Shown here piece after piece: positions 2,259 through 11,269 of a DNA stretch of 64,000 nt. The position numbers were made by a program, and so were the translations under genes. Position 1 is the first letter of the stretch; every line of letters begins with the position of its first letter. Where the stretch lies: the NCBI RefSeq assembly GCF_904846315.1, contig NZ_CAJHAF010000001.1, forward strand, positions 1,550,001 to 1,614,000, in the 5' to 3' direction. The notes below the pieces were generated by a model, which had not been told where the DNA came from, did no database searches, and saw only the letters and a program-made list of their open reading frames with translations. This stretch comes from Psychrobacter jeotgali (GTDB lineage Bacteria; Pseudomonadota; Gammaproteobacteria; Pseudomonadales; Moraxellaceae).

Positions 2259-3341
2259 TTAGAATATGTATTCTAGACCGCCACCAACAGCAAACAAGTC
2301 GGCATCATAACTACGATAAACGCCACTGCTGTCAAGATAACGAGCAACACTATCGGCTGAGTTTTGACCGATATAAGCATGAGCAATCATGTTGTCTTTA
2401 TACTTGTACTTACCACCCAAGACGATTTGGTCTGAATCAGCACCACTGAAGCCACTTAGGTTATCAGTTTTGTTGTACTGTAAGTAAACAGAAGCTGGGC
2501 GAGCAAAATTAGTTAGACCCATCTCAGCACTAACCACTAAACCTTTCTCTTTTTTAGAGTCGTAAAGGTAGCCAGCTTCGTGATCATAATCAGCTTCCTG
2601 ATATAGCACACCCAAAGTTACTGGATAAGCAACGTAATTACCTAGATCAACACTAGCAGTACCACGGATGATATCACCGCCCGTTCCGATACTCATGTCT
2701 TTATCATAACCGATACCCGCAGTAAAACCGGTACCTTGGTCAAACATTAATGAAGCACCAAAACCATTGTCACTATTTTCAAAGCTTTCATCAGCACCAT
2801 ACATAAGCGCAAGCTGTAATGGTAGGTCGTTATATTTTGGTGCAATCCAAACGATTGAGTTATCAATACGAGTGCCATCCGTTAAGTTACGGCTTGAAAC
2901 GATGTCATTCTCACTAAGAGTGTTAGCGCCTAAATTATCCCAGTAACCTTCGTTGATTGCGACGTTATTGATATAGTCAATAACAGCGAAGTTACGACCA
3001 GCACGGAACTGACCAAAGTCTTTATTAGCAAGACCTAGATAGGTATCACGGCTTTTAAAAGTTCTATCATCACCATCAACACGAATACCATATTCTAACT
3101 GATAAATCACATCAGTATTAGCAGTCATGGCCTCAGAACCTTTTAAGCCGATACGTGAAGCATTTGAGTTAATCTCTACGGTGCTATTGTCTTCTTTTAC
3201 AACATTAGTTCCATCAAAGACGTAAGCTTCTTTATCGACATAATCAGCAGTAACGAATGCTTTACCATAGACAGTCGGTGCCGCTTGCGCTGCAGATACA
3301 GATAGAGCAGCGATTGCTGTAGCTAAAAGTAGTTTTTTCAT
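2259..3341 (-). CDS. Gram-negative porin (first tandem copy)
   Basis: The product is a 360-residue outer-membrane porin. The signal peptide MKKLLLATAIAALSVSAAQA is nearly identical to that of the copy at 1-750, and the mature part carries the shared blocks SRIGLKGSEAMT, LEYGIRVDGDDRTFKSRDTYLGL and IAHAYIGQNSAD, ending in GGGLEYIF. The ATG at 3339-3341 is preceded by GGAGA at a good distance; the longer GTG start overlaps that site and is unlikely. It heads the tandem array and has a 541-base gap in front of it, where the promoter must lie, and a strong terminator behind it. The three copies differ mostly in the loops, as expected after duplication and divergence. Confidence 0.93.
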   Translation of the reverse strand: MKKLLLATAIAALSVSAAQAAPTVYGKAFVTADYVDKEAYVFDGTNVVKEDNSTVEINSNASRIGLKGSEAMTANTDVIYQLEYGIRVDGDDRTFKSRDTYLGLANKDFGQFRAGRNFAVIDYINNVAINEGYWDNLGANTLSENDIVSSRNLTDGTRIDNSIVWIAPKYNDLPLQLALMYGADESFENSDNGFGASLMFDQGTGFTAGIGYDKDMSIGTGGDIIRGTASVDLGNYVAYPVTLGVLYQEADYDHEAGYLYDSKKEKGLVVSAEMGLTNFARPASVYLQYNKTDNLSGFSGADSDQIVLGGKYKYKDNMIAHAYIGQNSADSVARYLDSSGVYRSYDADLFAVGGGLEYIF

Positions 3342-3753
3342 GGGTATCTCCACTTTACAATTTTAGTAATGAGCGAGCTATTATTAGCGAGTGCTCAAAA
3401 TGGTATCGTCACAAATCCTCAAAGATATAATGTGTAACTGGCTACCGAAATCAGTCAGAAACAAGCGTGGCGAAGTGCTATTACTGTAAGAAGAAAAAAC
3501 CAAAAATTACACGGTTGTAACTATGAAAGCACGTCTCAATGTAACTACTATGTAAACTTGGGTCTTTAACACTCTAGTGTGTAACATCCGTTACCAAACT
3601 CATACTTCAGCTATAAGCATAACAACTCTGACATAATTTGCAACATCTTTTTTAACTTTTGTTAATAGTTTTTTATAAAAGATTGCTAAAACTTCTGTTA
3701 TTAGCTGATATCAAAGCGTTTATTAGTAGTTATCAACAATATATATTTTCCAT
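3342..3753. other. Long AT-rich leader/promoter region of the porin array
   Basis: There is no convincing ORF in this stretch. It lies directly upstream of the first porin on the minus strand, so the promoter and any 5' regulatory element of that porin should be here. I found no repeat or protein-binding box I would defend. Confidence 0.5.
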
Positions 3754-3790
3754 AGAAAAACCTTCACCTGCCAAAACAGATGAAGGTCTT
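3754..3790 (-). terminator. Terminator of glcB
   Basis: On the minus strand ACCTTCATCTG pairs with AGGTGAAGGT across a short TTTTGGC loop (one mismatch), and a T run follows. It stands about 95 bases after the glcB stop. Confidence 0.85.
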
Positions 3791-3882
3791 ATCAAAAATA
3801 GCTCAAAGAGAAGATAGTTATCAAATAGAACTGATAATCTATCGGGTCATAAAAGCCTAATTACTAAGTCCTAATTACTAAG

Positions 3883-6081
3883 TTATGCACTAGACTTTAG
3901 ATCACGACGTGCTTGATGCAATAACGGCTCAGTATAGCCACTTGGCTGCTCACGACCTTTGAATACTAAATCACAAGCGGCTTTAAAGGCATAAGAGTTA
4001 TCAAAGTCGGTCGCCATAGGCTGATAAGCAGGATCATTGGCGTTTTGCTCATCAACAACTTTTGCCATACGCTTCATCGCCTCCATCACCTGCTCTTCGC
4101 TGACGACGTTGTGATGTAGCCAGTTAGCAATATGCTGACTAGAGATACGTAGGGTGGCACGGTCTTCCATCAAGCCGACATCATTGATATCAGGAACTTT
4201 AGAACAGCCTACTCCTTGGTTGACCCAGCGTACGACGTAACCTAGGATACCTTGAGCGTTGTTTTCAAGCTCGTTCTGCTTTTCTTCGTCAGTCCAGTTG
4301 GTATCCTTGGCTAGCGGTATGGTCAAGATATCGTCGACACTAGGACGAGTACGTGACTTGAGGCTATCCTGCACATCAGAGACATTGACTTGGTGGTAAT
4401 GCATGCTATGCAAAGTGGCACCAGTAGGCGAAGGAACCCATGCGGTACTAGCTCCAGCTTGTGGATGCGCCGCTTTGGTATCCATCATCTCTTTCATCTC
4501 ATCAGGCTTGGCCCACATGCCTTTACCAATCTGAGCACGTCCTTGTAGGCCAGTTTCAAGACCGATATCGACGTTCCACTGCTCATACGCAGGCTGCCAA
4601 GTTTGCGACTTCATATCGCCTTTACGTACGAAAGGACCCGCATTCATACTGGTATGCATCTCATCGCCTGTACGATCTAAGAAGCCGGTATTAATAAAGA
4701 TAACGCGTTCTTTTGCTTGGCGGATGGCTTCTTTAAGGTTGACCGTCATACGACGCTCTTCATCCATCACACCTATCTTTAGGCTATTACGTGGCAGACC
4801 TAATAAATCTTCTGAAGCATCAAATAAGTCATTGGCCATTTTAACTTCATCTGGGCTATGCATTTTAGGCTTAACGATATACATAGAGCCTTTGCGCGAG
4901 TTCGACAGCTCGTTTTTACCTTTGATATCATTAATAGATAATAGTGGCGTGATTAGCGCATCCATAATACCTTCAAAGATCTCTTCTTGACCTTCTCCTA
5001 AATCGACCAAAATAGCAGGGTTCTGCATCAAGTGTCCGACGTTACGGATAAGTAATAGTGAGCGACCTGGAAGCACTAATTTGCCGCCATCTGGCGTAGT
5101 GTATTCACGATCTGGATTTAGCTTACGAGTACGGGTCTTACCGCCTTTCTCAAAAGTCTCTTCCAAATCACCATTCATCAGGCCAAACCAGTTGCGATAG
5201 ACTTCTACCTTTTCTTCTGCATCAACCGCAGCGATAGAGTCCTCAGAATCTTGAATAGCCGTCACCGCCGACTCGAGCAGTACATCTTTGATACCAGCAG
5301 GATCGTCTTTACCGATCGGATTACTGCTATCGATTTGAATCTCGGCATGTAGTTTATTATTTTTTAATAAAATACCGGTTGGGCTATCGGCATCACCAAC
5401 ATAACCAACAAACTTGCTAGGGTCTTGTAGTTGGGTACTGTTATCTCCTTGAGCGATTACTAGCTTACCATCCGCTACCTTGAAGCCGGTTACTTCTGTA
5501 TAAGAACCTGATTCTAAAGCAAAGTTATCATCCAAGAACTGCTTGGCATAAGCGACTACCGCCGCACCGCGAGTAGGATTATAACCGCCTTTGTTTTCTT
5601 GACCGTTTTCCTCACTGATGACATCGGTACCGTATAGAGCATCGTATAAGCTGCCCCAACGTGCGTTGGTAGCGTTTAGCGCATAACGAGCGTTACGTAC
5701 GGGCACCACCAACTGTGGCCCTGCGATATGAGCAATTTCGTCATCAACATTTTCAGTTGTTACGGTAAAATCTTCGCCTTCTGGCAATAAATAATCAATA
5801 TCTTGTAAAAACTTTTTATAAGCTGGAAAATCTATCTCACCATTTTTGGCAGGGTTGTCCAAATGCCACTGATCTATTTTTGCTTGAATATCATCACGAG
5901 TCGCTAACAGCTCTTTGTTACGCGGCGTAAATGTCTGGACTACCTTTTCAAAACCTGACCAATAACTGTCCGAATCAATATCAACTCTAGGCAGTACTTC
6001 ATTTTCGATGAAGTCATATAATTGTTGGTCTATTGCAAGAATTCCTTTTTGGATACGATTAGCATGAGAAGCCTGACTCAT
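3883..6081 (-). CDS. glcB: Malate synthase G
   Basis: The enzyme condenses glyoxylate with acetyl-CoA to give malate in the cytoplasm. The 732-residue length fits the G isoform (about 720) rather than the shorter A isoform. Recognisable family blocks include [18 protein letters not shown] near residue 340 and [20 protein letters not shown] with the following [11 protein letters not shown] near residues 625-660. The start ATG has AAGGAC a short distance upstream. It is a single-gene unit with its own terminator. No isocitrate lyase or glycolate oxidase gene is next to it, but the window encodes a purine pathway (46-53 kb) whose end product is glyoxylate, a plausible substrate source. A large hairpin sits in its leader (6113-6172). 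Confidence 0.97.
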
Positions 6082-6454: not shown

Positions 6455-7231
6455 ATGAATACCAACGAAAACCCTTCTATTAGTAACAAAAGTAATAACC
6501 GCTCAAATATCAACTCTGATGATTATAATAACTATAGCTTAAGCGTAGGAAATAGCACTGATGACCTAAGCGATGACAGTAATAATGACAGCACCGATAT
6601 TAATCAGCTAAAGACGCCTATAAAGGTGGATTTGTCAGCTGTCTATGATTTTTTAGGTGGCAGAACTTCGCAAGCTTGGGTCAAGGCGGCCATTGATAAT
6701 CTGCCCCTCATCATCCAAGATCATGCTAATTGTGAGAAAAAAGCGGCTGGAACCGCTATGAACCTCCTATTTCGTTATGAGTTCTCTTATGAGCTTCAGC
6801 GTAAATTAGCACAATTGATCCGTGAAGAGATGCTCCACTACGAGCAGGTTTTAGGCATCATGCATGAGCGCGGGCAGCAATGGGAATATCTAAGTGCAGG
6901 CCGTTATGCTAAGGGTATGCTTAAACATAAACGCACTTACGAGCCGGCAGCCATGGTTGATGTATTGATCATTGGCGCCTTTATTGAAGCGCGCTCCTGT
7001 GAGCGTTTTGCGGCGCTGGCGACAGCTATGGATGACGAGCGTTTGGCTAAATATTATCGTTATTTACTTAAGTCTGAAAGCCGTCATTTTGAGGATTACC
7101 TAGCATTAGCACAGTCTTTATCTACAGATAATATTGATGAGCGGGTGGCTTTTTTTAAACAAGTAGAGAGTGAGCTTATAACCCGTCCTGACCCTGAGCT
7201 GCGCTTTCATAGTGGCGAGCCTGCGGCTTAA
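6455..7231 (+). CDS. miaE: tRNA-(ms2io6A37) hydroxylase
   Basis: MiaE is a ferritin-like di-iron monooxygenase that hydroxylates the isopentenyl side chain of ms2i6A at position 37 of tRNAs reading U-starting codons. The core from about residue 60 has the expected two ExxH iron motifs, EEMLH (in REEMLHYEQVLGIMHERG) and ESRH (in SESRHFEDYLALA), plus GAFIEARSCERFAALA. The 258-residue length is close to the family norm, but the first 50 residues are a low-complexity Asn/Ser/Asp-rich stretch not needed for the fold. It is transcribed alone and ends at a bidirectional terminator. A start nearer residue 60 would still give a complete enzyme core, so the N-terminus is the only uncertain part. Confidence 0.93.
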   Translation: MNTNENPSISNKSNNRSNINSDDYNNYSLSVGNSTDDLSDDSNNDSTDINQLKTPIKVDLSAVYDFLGGRTSQAWVKAAIDNLPLIIQDHANCEKKAAGTAMNLLFRYEFSYELQRKLAQLIREEMLHYEQVLGIMHERGQQWEYLSAGRYAKGMLKHKRTYEPAAMVDVLIIGAFIEARSCERFAALATAMDDERLAKYYRYLLKSESRHFEDYLALAQSLSTDNIDERVAFFKQVESELITRPDPELRFHSGEPAA

Positions 7232-7261
7232 TTTTTTTCCAACTAATGGTTTAAAAGCCAT

Positions 7262-7295
7262 AAAAAAAGCAATGGCCATTTGCCATTGCTTTATC
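7262..7295. terminator. Bidirectional terminator between miaE and a small gene
   Basis: The stem GCAATGGC (7269-7276) pairs with GCCATTGC (7282-7289), flanked by A and T tracts. The longer T run is on the minus strand, so it serves the gene at 7354-7560 best and miaE less strongly. Confidence 0.85.
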
Positions 7296-7353
7296 ATTTC
7301 TAGCTACTGTTATGTATTATAAACCTATCGTTAATAGATGCTGCTTTGGTTTT

Positions 7354-7560
7354 TTACTTTTTATTCTCAGTCAGGTCAGTATCATACTGCTTAACATTTT
7401 TTGCTACATTATGGATATCATGATCAGCAGTCGCTTTCTCAGCAGCAGCTGGATTTACCTTTTGTAGCGCATCATCAGGAACGATACCTTCGTTATCACC
7501 CGCATCTTTTAACTCATAATCCTTATTTTTATCTGGATTGATATCCTTTGATGTACTCAT
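7354..7560 (-). CDS. Small charged, probably disordered protein (68 aa)
   Basis: I do not recognise a named family. The product is very rich in Asp, Lys, Asn, Ala and Glu, has no Cys or Trp, no hydrophobic core, no signal peptide and no membrane segment, so it is likely intrinsically disordered. The ATG has AGGAA at good spacing and a terminator follows the stop, which supports a real gene. It is the last of four similar small genes on this strand, each with its own leader. The composition resembles hydrophilins, which in relatives such as Acinetobacter are linked to desiccation tolerance; that role here is inference only. Confidence 0.75.
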   Translation of the reverse strand: MSTSKDINPDKNKDYELKDAGDNEGIVPDDALQKVNPAAAEKATADHDIHNVAKNVKQYDTDLTENKK

Positions 7561-7667
7561 GGCTATTCCTTTTTATAATTATAGGTTTATAGTTATACGT
7601 TTATGGTCATAAAATTTATGATGGGATAAAGTCCATAAAAGTCTACGCTATGTTCTCAGACTGTGTA

Positions 7668-8054
7668 TTAATCTGGATCTTTTTCATCAGGGTTCAATAT
7701 ACGTGACTGTGCATTATCCACACTGGCATAACGATTCATATCCGTAATTTCTTCGCTTTTTTCACCCTCACTCCCCATTGTATCCTCGTTGATATTACCA
7801 TCAAAAGGCGAGCTACCTTGTTGGTCACGGCGATCGGGTTGACGTGCTGGGTTATCGTCGTCGTTAACATGCTGGGTTTCTACAATATCTTCTTCAAAAG
7901 TATCCGTTCCCTTGTTAATTGTAGTGTTATCTTCAATATCTTCATGATTTGCACGATTATCAGCTACTTTTACATTTGCTGTCTCTGCCCGAGCTGCTGT
8001 TTCAGTAGTGTCAGTGATTGGGGTTTTCGTTAGAGCAGGATCCTTGGTTTCCAT
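7668..8054 (-). CDS. Small acidic, probably disordered protein (128 aa)
   Basis: I cannot assign a function. The chain is dominated by Asp, Glu, Thr, Asn and Ala, lacks Cys and Trp, and has almost no clusters of large hydrophobic residues. It therefore looks disordered along its whole length, and strongly acidic in the second half (DDDNPARQPDRRDQ, SEGEKSEEITD, NPDEKDPD). I start at METKDPAL because GGAG stands six bases before that ATG; the ATG four codons earlier would include the ribosome site in the gene. It is the longest member of the four-gene group. A charged phase-separating, DNA-mimic or protective role is possible; nothing in the sequence decides. Confidence 0.75.
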   Translation of the reverse strand: METKDPALTKTPITDTTETAARAETANVKVADNRANHEDIEDNTTINKGTDTFEEDIVETQHVNDDDNPARQPDRRDQQGSSPFDGNINEDTMGSEGEKSEEITDMNRYASVDNAQSRILNPDEKDPD

Positions 8055-8229
8055 ATCTTTCTCCATATATATAAAAGGTTATTAGAACGATTGGCGCTGG
8101 ATAGTTAGTGGCGCTCTTAGATGAGAAAAGACCATTAAATGCAAAGCTAATCAACTTCTCAGCAAATGGTGGCTGCTTATTATTGTTGTAATTAAAGTAA
8201 GGTTACAGAGCTAAGCATTTTGAGCTAAA

Positions 8230-8490
8230 TTATAAGTCATCTCGGCCCAAGTTATCAGCCGTTAAATCTCCGACATTCTTACCACCAGCAGGTAAATCTT
8301 CTTCTTTTCTCGGGTCAGAATACACTTCATCAGTCTCTTGGGAGTCTTGTATAGGACCGTCTATCTCTGGGTCGTATTTGCGCCCTTCATAACTGTCTCT
8401 TGGGTTTTCTGGTTTTGTTGAAGCTGGGTCATTAACCACTACTTTTTCTTCAGTAGGATCATTATTAACCACTTTATTATTATTGGTCAT
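8230..8490 (-). CDS. Small acidic, probably disordered protein (86 aa)
   Basis: There is no family I recognise. The N-terminus has a short internal repeat (VVNNDPTEEK followed by VVVNDPASTK). The middle is rich in Pro, Asp and Glu (YDPEIDGPIQDSQETDE), and Cys and Trp are absent. No signal or membrane segment is visible. GAGGG lies eight bases before the ATG. The genes on either side belong to the same compositional class, and the 175-base gap to the next gene leaves room for a separate promoter. The reading frame on the opposite strand here is a poor candidate with no ribosome site. Confidence 0.75.
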   Translation of the reverse strand: MTNNNKVVNNDPTEEKVVVNDPASTKPENPRDSYEGRKYDPEIDGPIQDSQETDEVYSDPRKEEDLPAGGKNVGDLTADNLGRDDL

Positions 8491-8614
8491 GGCATATCCC
8501 TCGCATGCATTGGTTATAGTAGTTTGTTTATAGTAGTAAGGCTTTATGATAGTTGGTATACATAATAAGGAGAAAAACTTGATAAATGATGCTTTTAACC
8601 TTACTTATAAACTC

Positions 8615-8803
8615 TTACTTATCAGTACGTACTTGTTGGTTTATAAAGGAAGTTTCTTGCTCTTCAGTCAAGTTTTCTGGCTCATTCGTTGCCTTTTCAT
8701 CCTTCAAGTTACCATTCAAATTCTTTTCAATTTGCTCGACATTAGCCTTTTCAGCCGCTTCTCTTACATCCGATTTATCAGTGTGATTATTATCAGTAGT
8801 CAT
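8615..8803 (-). CDS. Small charged, probably disordered protein (62 aa)
   Basis: Function is unknown. The product is rich in Glu, Asn, Lys and Thr (VREAAEKANVEQIEKNLNG, NLTEEQETS) and has no Cys or Trp. The central part could form an amphipathic helix, but there is no hydrophobic core. AGGAG at seven bases before the ATG is a strong ribosome site and decides the start. It is the first of the four-gene group on the minus strand. A CTATAGCTATACC stretch lies just upstream in the leader and could be a -10 element, possibly for a stress sigma factor. Confidence 0.72.
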   Translation of the reverse strand: MTTDNNHTDKSDVREAAEKANVEQIEKNLNGNLKDEKATNEPENLTEEQETSFINQQVRTDK

Positions 8804-9058
8804 TACCTATCTCCTATCTTATTTATATTTTGGTATAGCTATAGCATAAACGGCACATACTGATCGATTGAAACGCCTATAGCAGCTATAACCATTTCAA
8901 TCTCAATGTTCCATCTAACTGGTTTAACTTGACTTAAGTATAGATAAGAAATTTACCTATACGCCAGTGCACTGCCGTATCAATATGTGAATAATTGTGA
9001 GCTTAAAAGGCAGTTTGTAACCAGTGCTCAGATAGAATCGGTGCAAATTTGATAGCAT

Positions 9059-11269
9059 TTAAGTTGATTCGCTTACATGATTAATAGTCTTGAGCAAATA
9101 GTCTTGAGCAATGTGTATAGGCTCGTCTACAGCACGCTGAACTTGTTGCCAAACGCCATCACCATTTAACACCCAAGCTTGTACATTATCCTGTAAATAG
9201 TTTTGCAGACCATCTTGATAAATCTGTTTGAATAGCTTTTTGTCCTCGATAGGAAACGCTACTTCAACACGGTGGAATAAGTTGCGATCCATCCAGTCGG
9301 CACTACCACAATACAGGCGCTCATTGCCATTATTATGGAAGTAATAAACTCGTGTGTGCTCCAAAAAGCGACCAACGATCGAGCGCACAGTGATATTCTC
9401 AGACAGCCCTTTTACTTGGGGACGTAGGCAACAAATAGAGCGTAAAATCAGCTCAATTTTGACCCCAGCTTGCGAAGCATCATAGAGCTTATCAATCAAG
9501 CGGCGCTCCGTTAGCGCATTGACTTTGACAATAATGTGCGCACGCTTGCCTGCTTTAGCATGAGCTATTTCATCGTCAATAAAGCTCATCAATTTATCAT
9601 GCAAGGTAAAGGGCGCATGGAGTAGTTTTTTCAGATTAGCTGGTTTGCCCATACCGGTAAGCTCTTGGAAGATTTTGTGCACGTCCTCTGAGATATCAGG
9701 ATCAGCGGTAAATAGACCATAATCGGTATAGACTTTAGCGTTGGCAGCATGATAATTACCGGTGCCTAAATGCACGTAACGACGGATATAATTGTCTTCA
9801 CGGCGGACAATAAGCATAAGCTTGGCATGGGTCTTATAACCGACAATGCCATAAACTACCACTGCGCCAGCCTCTTGTAAGTAGTTGGCGACAGCGATGT
9901 TCGACGCTTCATCAAAACGTGCACGTAGCTCAATAACAGCGGTAACTTCCTTGCCATTACGGGCAGCGGCGGCAAGTGCTTGCACTATCTCAGAATTGGT
10001 GCCTGAGCGGTATAGCGTTTGCTTGATAGCCAACACTTTAGGGTCAGTAGCAGCTTGCCATAGCAAATTAATAACAGGCGCAAATGCATGAAAAGGATGG
10101 TGCACTAGCACGTCGCCTTTACGCATGGCGCCAAACATGCTGGTGGAGCGATCGAGTTTATCAAACTCACGCCGAAATGGCTTGGGCATGATATGAGTGA
10201 ATGGCTGATAGCGTAGCTCTGGAATATTAAAATCAAATAATAACCGGGTCAGATTGACCGGCCCATTGACTCGGTATAATTGGTTATCATGAAGTTCAAA
10301 CTCATTAAGCAAATAATCACTAATAGCTGTCGGACAATCGGTGGTGACCTCCAAGCGTACTTTGTCACCAAAACGGCGGTTCTCAAGCTCGCCTTCTAAT
10401 GCTTTAGCAATATCATCGACATCATCAGCCAAGTCCAAATCTGCGTTACGGGTTAATCTAAACTGATGGCAACCGGTTACATTCATACCAGGAAATAGCT
10501 CGCCCACATGTTCATGGATCACGGCTGAAAGCATAATATGATGTTCTTTGCCGTCGGTAAGCTCATCCGGCAGACGTATCACCCGTGGCAAGCTACGCGG
10601 CGCGGGGACAATCGCTAAATTAATATCACGACCAAAAGCGTCCTTGCCTTCTATAGTAGCGATAAAATTCAGGCTTTTATTGACCAAGCGCGGGAATGGA
10701 TGCGCCGGATCGATACTGATAGGCGTAAGCACTGGTGAGACCTGTTCAGTAAAATAACGCTTCATCCATGCCGACTGCTCCGCATTGAGCTCATCACGTT
10801 TTAGATAGCGAATATCTTGCTCTGCTAAGGCTGGTAAAACATCTTCATTAAGAATGCGATACTGCTCATCAATAGCGTCGTGAGCCACTGCTGATATTTC
10901 GTTTAAAACCTCACTAGGACGCATACCGTGCGGGCTGGTGGCGACGTTACCAAGGTTGAGCTTTTGCATAATACCAGCAACACGAATCTCAAAAAACTCA
11001 TCCATATTGGAAGAGAAAATAATTAAGAAAAATAGGCGCTCAAGCAAAGGGTGGCGTGGACTGGCTGCCTGCGCCAATACGCGCAAATGAAACTGTAATA
11101 AGGACAAATCACGATTGATATAACTGCTCGGTGAATAGCTTCCGTCCTCAGAACGCTGCCAATCGATTTGGGTCAGAGAATTGTCATCTGCTCTTTCGTG
11201 ATTGATACTGTTTTTATTGACACTGTCGCTATCAGCTTTATCAGTTTGCTGCTTATTTACATTTGCCAT
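9059..11269 (-). CDS. ppk1: Polyphosphate kinase 1
   Basis: PPK1 makes long-chain inorganic polyphosphate from ATP, reversibly, through a phosphohistidine. Family blocks are clear: the N-terminal [20 protein letters not shown], the catalytic region with [12 protein letters not shown] (phosphorylated His), [20 protein letters not shown] and, near the C-terminus, [21 protein letters not shown]. The 736 residues exceed the usual 690 or so because of a 35-residue polar N-terminal extension. The ATG is supported by GGAGGG six bases upstream, so the extension looks real. It follows the four stress-type small genes and precedes none in an operon. Polyphosphate is a general stress and phosphate store. 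Confidence 0.97.

Follow-up and report, generated by a model that had tools for sequence, protein, structure and literature searches.

Between the polyphosphate kinase gene ppk1 and miaE, Psychrobacter jeotgali carries four short reading frames, raising the question of whether these are genuine genes, how they are switched on and what their products might do. The window analysed here is a 64,000-nt stretch of this genome, to which all coordinates refer. A preliminary description had listed four small genes on one strand with ribosome sites at this place; an ORF check of the window found all of them (D1 to D4) on the minus strand between ppk1 and miaE, each preceded by a plausible ribosome site.

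Four conserved genes for small disordered proteins

The locus contains the following features:

6455–7231, plus strand: miaE, convergent neighbour and conserved flank (PF06175, E 1.1e-69)
7266–7292, both strands: bidirectional terminator-like hairpin with an 11-bp stem (terminator scan; consensus match only)
7354–7560, minus strand: D4, 68-aa disordered protein
7668–8054, minus strand: D3, 128-aa disordered protein
8230–8490, minus strand: D2, 86-aa disordered protein
8615–8803, minus strand: D1, 62-aa acidic disordered protein
8937–8942, minus strand: –10 hexamer TATACT, 20 nt after the conserved element (genus consensus TATAAT)
8963–9021, minus strand: 59-bp conserved upstream element, a putative activator array; window copy GTTACAAACTGCCTTTTAAGCTCACAATTATTCACATATTGATACGGCAGTGCACTGGC
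9059–11269, minus strand: ppk1, polyphosphate kinase of 736 aa, upstream neighbour (PF17941, PF13090, PF02503, PF13089)

An alternative in-frame ATG at 8066 would extend D3 to 132 aa. The hairpin sits between D4 and the convergent miaE, closing the operon. A search of positions 7200–9200 against Rfam returned four matches, every one far under its gathering score. At 236 bits against the NCBIfam equivalog cut-off of 320, the window's miaE product counts as divergent for its family, and it has a long N-terminus with many Asn and Ser residues.

All four window proteins lack Cys and Trp, are strongly hydrophilic (GRAVY –1.57, –1.42, –1.38 and –1.24), have isoelectric points of 4.15–4.77 and carry net charges of –5 to –20, bearing out the initial characterization of them as Cys/Trp-free, charged and of low hydrophobicity. 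For comparison, the 48 six-frame ORFs in the window that reach 150 aa or more never fall below a GRAVY of –1.0 (minimum –0.67). Among relatives, one Cys or Trp occurs in 4 of 69 D3 and 1 of 51 D4 proteins, the absence being nearly, not fully, kept. The proposed disorder was likewise upheld: charge-hydropathy analysis classified 243 of 243 collected family members as disordered, and AlphaFold2 run with alignments found no fold for D2 (pLDDT 61.2, pTM 0.19; 15 of 86 residues at pLDDT 70–90) or D3 (pLDDT 59.1, pTM 0.15; 18 of 128 residues in that range), the two proteins modelled. No curated Pfam or NCBIfam family matched the window proteins, LEA-type and other desiccation families in Pfam included, and the single Pfam match at E≤1 was SchA_CurD on D1 (12.9 bits vs. 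a cut-off of 24.2). Among 24 D4 members searched against Pfam at E≤0.1, three matched SWIB, two DUF7059 (best E 0.0035) and one Fer4_15. Neither the D1 nor the D3 profile hit a PDB chain at E≤1. None of the six profile pairs gave evidence that the four families share an ancestor. Among the papers listed in literature searches, none describes the proteins in its title or the opening of its abstract, and the named hits seen were all 'hypothetical protein'.

In a genus sample of 105 Psychrobacter genomes, the window's own included, D3 homologues occur in 101 and D2 homologues in 99. D1 was found in 97 by profile (114 matches minus 4 in another genus, g7, and 13 in a further one, g15), two of these being partial (G039, G005); a single-sequence search at E≤1 recovered it in 95, including one with E 0.38. 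D4 is present in 83 genomes at E≤1e-10 and in 86 at E≤1, the three extra matches (E 0.1–0.4) probably being due to chance. Dropping duplicates left 71 loci with at least one D gene and two more without any. For the genes present, the order ppk1 > D1 > D2 > D3 > D4 < miaE and the expected strands are kept in 71 of 71 loci (both flanks visible in 67), and single-sequence search found all four D genes in 43. A second set of 80 named ppk1 loci comprised 50 from Psychrobacter, some cut by contig ends, with D1 in 43, D2 in 44, D3 in 47, D4 in 40 and all four in 34; the 30 others (Moraxella, Acinetobacter, Alkanindiges and two further records) contained no D gene. P. lutiphocae has none either, its ppk1 and miaE adjoining each other (L083, L181).

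Across 299 genomes of the family, D2 is confined to Psychrobacter and D3 reaches four genomes of g7, where D1, a diverged middle protein and D3 occupy the same place (ORFs listed for two of the four). The g7 middle gene (L132, 2961–3308, plus strand; L133, 3690–4310, minus strand) encodes a diverged protein of 116–207 aa; the two proteins share the motifs EDSVTHQ.G.GVT and ETPDIFDN.PQAAVK and give no D2 profile match. Apparent D3 relatives in g15 (G162, G253; E ~0.04) lie antisense within an MFS transporter gene and were set aside as chance matches. A basal group of Psychrobacter, mostly mammal-derived, grows at 37 °C according to the available part of PMC8546975. As the distribution of the D set tracks phylogeny, any ecological association is confounded.

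The reading frames evolve as coding sequence. By the Nei-Gojobori method, median dN/dS is 0.10 for D1, 0.09 for D2, 0.06 for D3 and 0.07 for D4; among the pairs with 0.1<dS<1.0 (75, 93, 77 and 77, respectively), none reaches 1, and third codon positions vary most. Neutral drift is thereby excluded, and D1 to D4 are real genes under strong purifying selection. Together with the collinearity in Psychrobacter, this supports the earlier proposal of a dedicated set of four disordered proteins in a conserved neighbourhood.

Despite their disorder, the proteins contain near-invariant motifs. D1 contains an IxxAxExxDxxxIxxNL-like segment and a (P/S)FI...RTDK tail, with N28, F53 and I54 invariant besides the start (n = 31). 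The D2 motif reads YEGRKHxPxIDGPQQxSQETDEIYxDPRK...LPAGGKNVxDLNAxDL (12 invariant columns, n = 33). D3 carries a conserved C-terminal module, HVNDGDNPARQPDRRDQ..FD..INE....NRYA.(I/V)DNAQ(T/S)R.L, and its 17 invariant columns (n = 28) all fall inside residues 62–118; family length ranges from 81 to 290 aa, mostly through variation in the N-terminal half. For D4, the motif is GIVPDDALQKVNPAAAERATxDHDPHNVAK..KQYD.

Several loci depart from the usual layout. D3 exceeds 200 aa in L044, L045, L047, L072 and L073 (290, 217, 231, 214 and 207 aa, respectively), and in some long forms (L050, L072) the N-terminal half repeats KGT(E/Q)T(L/F)(Q/R)ET-like segments. At L049 (G005, 2636–2950, minus strand), the D2 frame opens with a D1-like N-terminus, SDIKKAAEQADS, and seems to be a naturally occurring fusion of D1 and D2 that lacks the tail of D1; the 59-bp element lies 91 nt upstream of this frame. 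At L077 (G051, 3420–4358), D1 and D2 are set apart by roughly 0.9 kb of additional DNA.

One conserved element upstream of D1

The CTATA-type –10 elements previously assigned to the leaders were confirmed for D1: 33 of 53 D1 leaders contain CTATA[ACT]T, compared to 9.8 in shuffled sequences. For the other leaders they were not, the counts for D2, D3 and D4 (5 of 65, 2 of 69 and 3 of 50) being about at or below shuffle level (4.5, 5.2 and 2.3). Alignment of the 53 D1 leaders revealed a block of 59 bp with a mean top-base frequency of 0.89, compared to 0.58 before the block, 0.53 over the following 20 nt and 0.34 in the rest. An enriched promoter motif is missing from the D2 to D4 leaders, and the notion of a separate promoter for each gene is not supported.

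All 65 distinct copies of the element are 59 bp long, and 63 are followed by TATA[AC]T at exactly 20 nt. These copies were collected by a regular expression that allowed other lengths and fixed some bases, at which invariance arises by construction, so that the leader alignment gives the unbiased figure for conservation. The hexamer at the usual –35 place, GGCGTA, is not a consensus sequence, making an activator likely. Half-sites TTACA, TCACA, TCACA and TACAC start at element positions 2, 22, 32 and 51, near a 10-bp phase.

Of 40 genus genomes, 34 gave strong matches to a sequence model of the element (R1), without exception at the D operon; in the six others, ppk1 is 76–83% identical to that of the window. 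The regular expression left the element unmatched in 17 of 71 D-bearing loci, mostly of divergent species, at least one of which (L060) has a recognisable variant. Second copies in G003 and G104 (E 1e-3 and 2e-3) lie antisense within a phosphoesterase gene and were dismissed as chance (ORFs were listed for L230; L231 is near-identical in sequence). At three loci in which both searches found no D1 (L015, L016, L017), the element is retained 116–168 nt upstream of D2, as would be predicted of an element acting on the operon as a whole. On sequence grounds, then, D1 to D4 form one operon marked by a single conserved, activator-type promoter upstream of D1.

Of 51 loci, 41 have a terminator-like hairpin between ppk1 and the element, compared to an average of 0.8 and a maximum of 3 in shuffled sequences, and in most relatives ppk1 is probably a transcription unit separate from the D operon. 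In the window, no such hairpin was found in the 37-nt gap between ppk1 and the element (9022–9058), so read-through from ppk1 is possible there.

Possible roles: protection, docking or both

We consider it about evenly balanced that the locus is a lineage-specific, activator-driven stress operon for four unrelated, motif-bearing, disordered cytoplasmic proteins. Under such a scheme, a DNA-binding activator at about –91 to –33 would switch on the whole operon under conditions that we infer to be adverse (salt, cold, freezing, drying or stationary phase). As soluble protectants, its products would then hold or shield clients, their short conserved motifs docking each on particular partners and their variable acidic segments keeping them soluble. 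Psychrobacter is a cold- and salt-adapted genus; found in nearly all of its sequenced species, strongly selected and encoding products with no name beyond 'hypothetical protein' among the named hits seen, the operon makes a good candidate for a component of stress biology in these bacteria.

To judge from composition, the D proteins are probably stress protectants. The hydrophilin rule demands a hydrophilicity index above 1.0 and more than 6% glycine (PMC7448490, in the part available); with the former taken as a GRAVY below –1.0, all four proteins satisfy it. Glycine contents are 1.6% for D1, 7.0% for D2, 3.9% for D3 and 2.9% for D4. By composition, the earlier suggestion of hydrophilins fits D2 and fails on glycine for D1, D3 and D4. 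Further findings temper this reading. The proteins are conserved in sequence and not just in composition, which is unlike a generic hydrophilin and counts against protection as their role; moreover, a search of 40 genomes turned up the element at no other site, leaving the stress interpretation without the backing of a stress regulon.

The conserved motifs suggest specific binding partners, and an alternative, which we rate as possible though clearly the less probable, is that the D proteins are specific adaptors, in which short linear motifs bind one conserved machine each and regulate it, candidates being the ribosome, an enzyme acting on nucleic acids or a complex in the membrane, and disorder merely provides a linker. 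The invariant blocks in the chosen D1, D2 and D3 alignments favour it, as does the recurrence of the D1 module outside the genus. The D1 profile matches small ORFs in g15 (E 4e-4 to 0.016), whose close relatives bear Acinetobacter names in the databases. Nine of the 13 matches were used, the other four lying in frames of 984–1017 aa. The nine proteins (A6 family; 'hypothetical protein' where named, e.g. in A. haemolyticus, A. halotolerans and A. ihumii) are hydrophilic and end in IR.A.E..D....NL.....P......PFI; this C-terminal module aligns with D1 (hhalign 93.2%, E 2.9e-7), and comparison with the D2 profile gave nothing. The A6 proteins differ from D1 in being longer (116–134 aa), in carrying an extra EGLTD block and in their genes lying in two other neighbourhoods, as seen in three loci listed. 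Alkanindiges relatives also match the A6 profile, and their named members keep EGLTD and the helix, with PFI changed to PFS or lost. The search for homologues in Acinetobacter located the D1 module in disordered proteins, encoded away from ppk1 in the three loci with ORFs listed. Its recurrence in otherwise different proteins implies that conservation acts on the module and not on composition, which speaks for a conserved partner of the shared helix-plus-PFI segment. Against adaptors weigh the lack of any Pfam or NCBIfam match for the window proteins and of a PDB chain for the D1 and D3 profiles at the thresholds given above; besides, a cocktail of protectants would also take the form of several small acidic proteins, unrelated to each other, from a single operon.

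Somewhat more speculatively still, the two ideas might be combined: a Moraxellaceae-specific class of disordered proteins with motifs, produced in Psychrobacter as four together from one activator-driven promoter, could dock on conserved machinery and shield or silence it under stress, the helix-plus-PFI of D1 serving as a shared docking unit retained in Acinetobacter. If true, the system would answer stress through specific targets and not as a generic protectant, and its operator would be one seen at a single operon in the 40 genomes searched. Whether bacterial disordered stress proteins work by composition or by specific binding is a question that the conserved motifs make amenable to test, and the 59-bp element offers a defined bait for finding the regulator.

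Candidate regulators, polyphosphate and known systems

Membership of the D operon in a BfmR/RstA (OmpR-family) stress regulon would be compatible with protectants and adaptors alike. We regard it as unlikely, even though a close homologue of these regulators is present in the genome (L245, with BfmR 5hm6 and RstA 5e3j as its top PDB matches, E 2.6e-67), one of eight Trans_reg_C matches and the one compared with the PDB. The near 10-bp phase of the half-sites recalls OmpR-family tandem sites, and hydrophilins DtpA and DtpB of A. baumannii fall under such a regulon, a cluster with dtpA and dtpB dropping in a bfmR mutant (PMC13232832, as far as available). However, the match to the RstA box, TACATNTNGTTACA (PMC4117788, in the accessible part), is weak at 9/12 and attained by 24% of shuffles; two 9/12 sites arise in 3% of shuffles, and the window copy has only one. 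The best tandem TTACAT reached 10/12, as did 4.6% of shuffles, with nine motifs tried. PhoB, CRP, FNR, CpxR, Fur and LexA boxes fitted the element no better than shuffles, and the fits of OmpR-type, IHF and RstA operators were equalled by 4.6%, 6.2% and 24% of shuffles, respectively, among the nine operator motifs. Hence, no known operator box convincingly matches the element.

Sigma-S, formerly considered for the CTATA-type leaders, was rejected, as no rpoS was found in this genome: the best match to TIGR02394 scored 284.3 bits (654-aa frame) against a cut-off of 378.7 and the next 147 bits (353-aa frame), so that this model finds sigma factors below cut-off only; among 14 control genomes, one exceeded it. 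The part of PMC10325922 available describes A. baumannii and related Moraxella-family species as lacking rpoS.

Least supported is the idea, likewise raised at the outset, that the D proteins form condensates with the polyphosphate produced by the adjoining ppk1, or organise it, which is very improbable: its basis is proximity, the D genes adjoining ppk1 in the Psychrobacter loci and the four g7 genomes, but the proteins are net negative like polyphosphate itself, their operon has its own promoter and usually a terminator after ppk1, ppk1 persists where D genes are missing, and the Acinetobacter D1-like genes lie away from ppk1 in the three 4-kb loci with ORFs listed.

Returning to the reading of an activator-driven stress operon, two known systems invite comparison. 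Like OmpR-family tandem arrays, the element has ACA half-sites phased at about 10 bp and closely precedes a –10 that has no consensus –35 partner; unlike them, it spans 59 bp, is nearly invariant and is strong only at the D operon across 40 genomes. The proteins themselves are small, highly hydrophilic and disordered, as are hydrophilins and LEA-like proteins, including Acinetobacter DtpA and DtpB, whose genes are clustered with other desiccation genes (PMC13232832, from the same portion); this likeness is one of general description. They differ from that group in having no Pfam match, in passing the glycine rule with D2 alone and in the strong conservation of their motifs.
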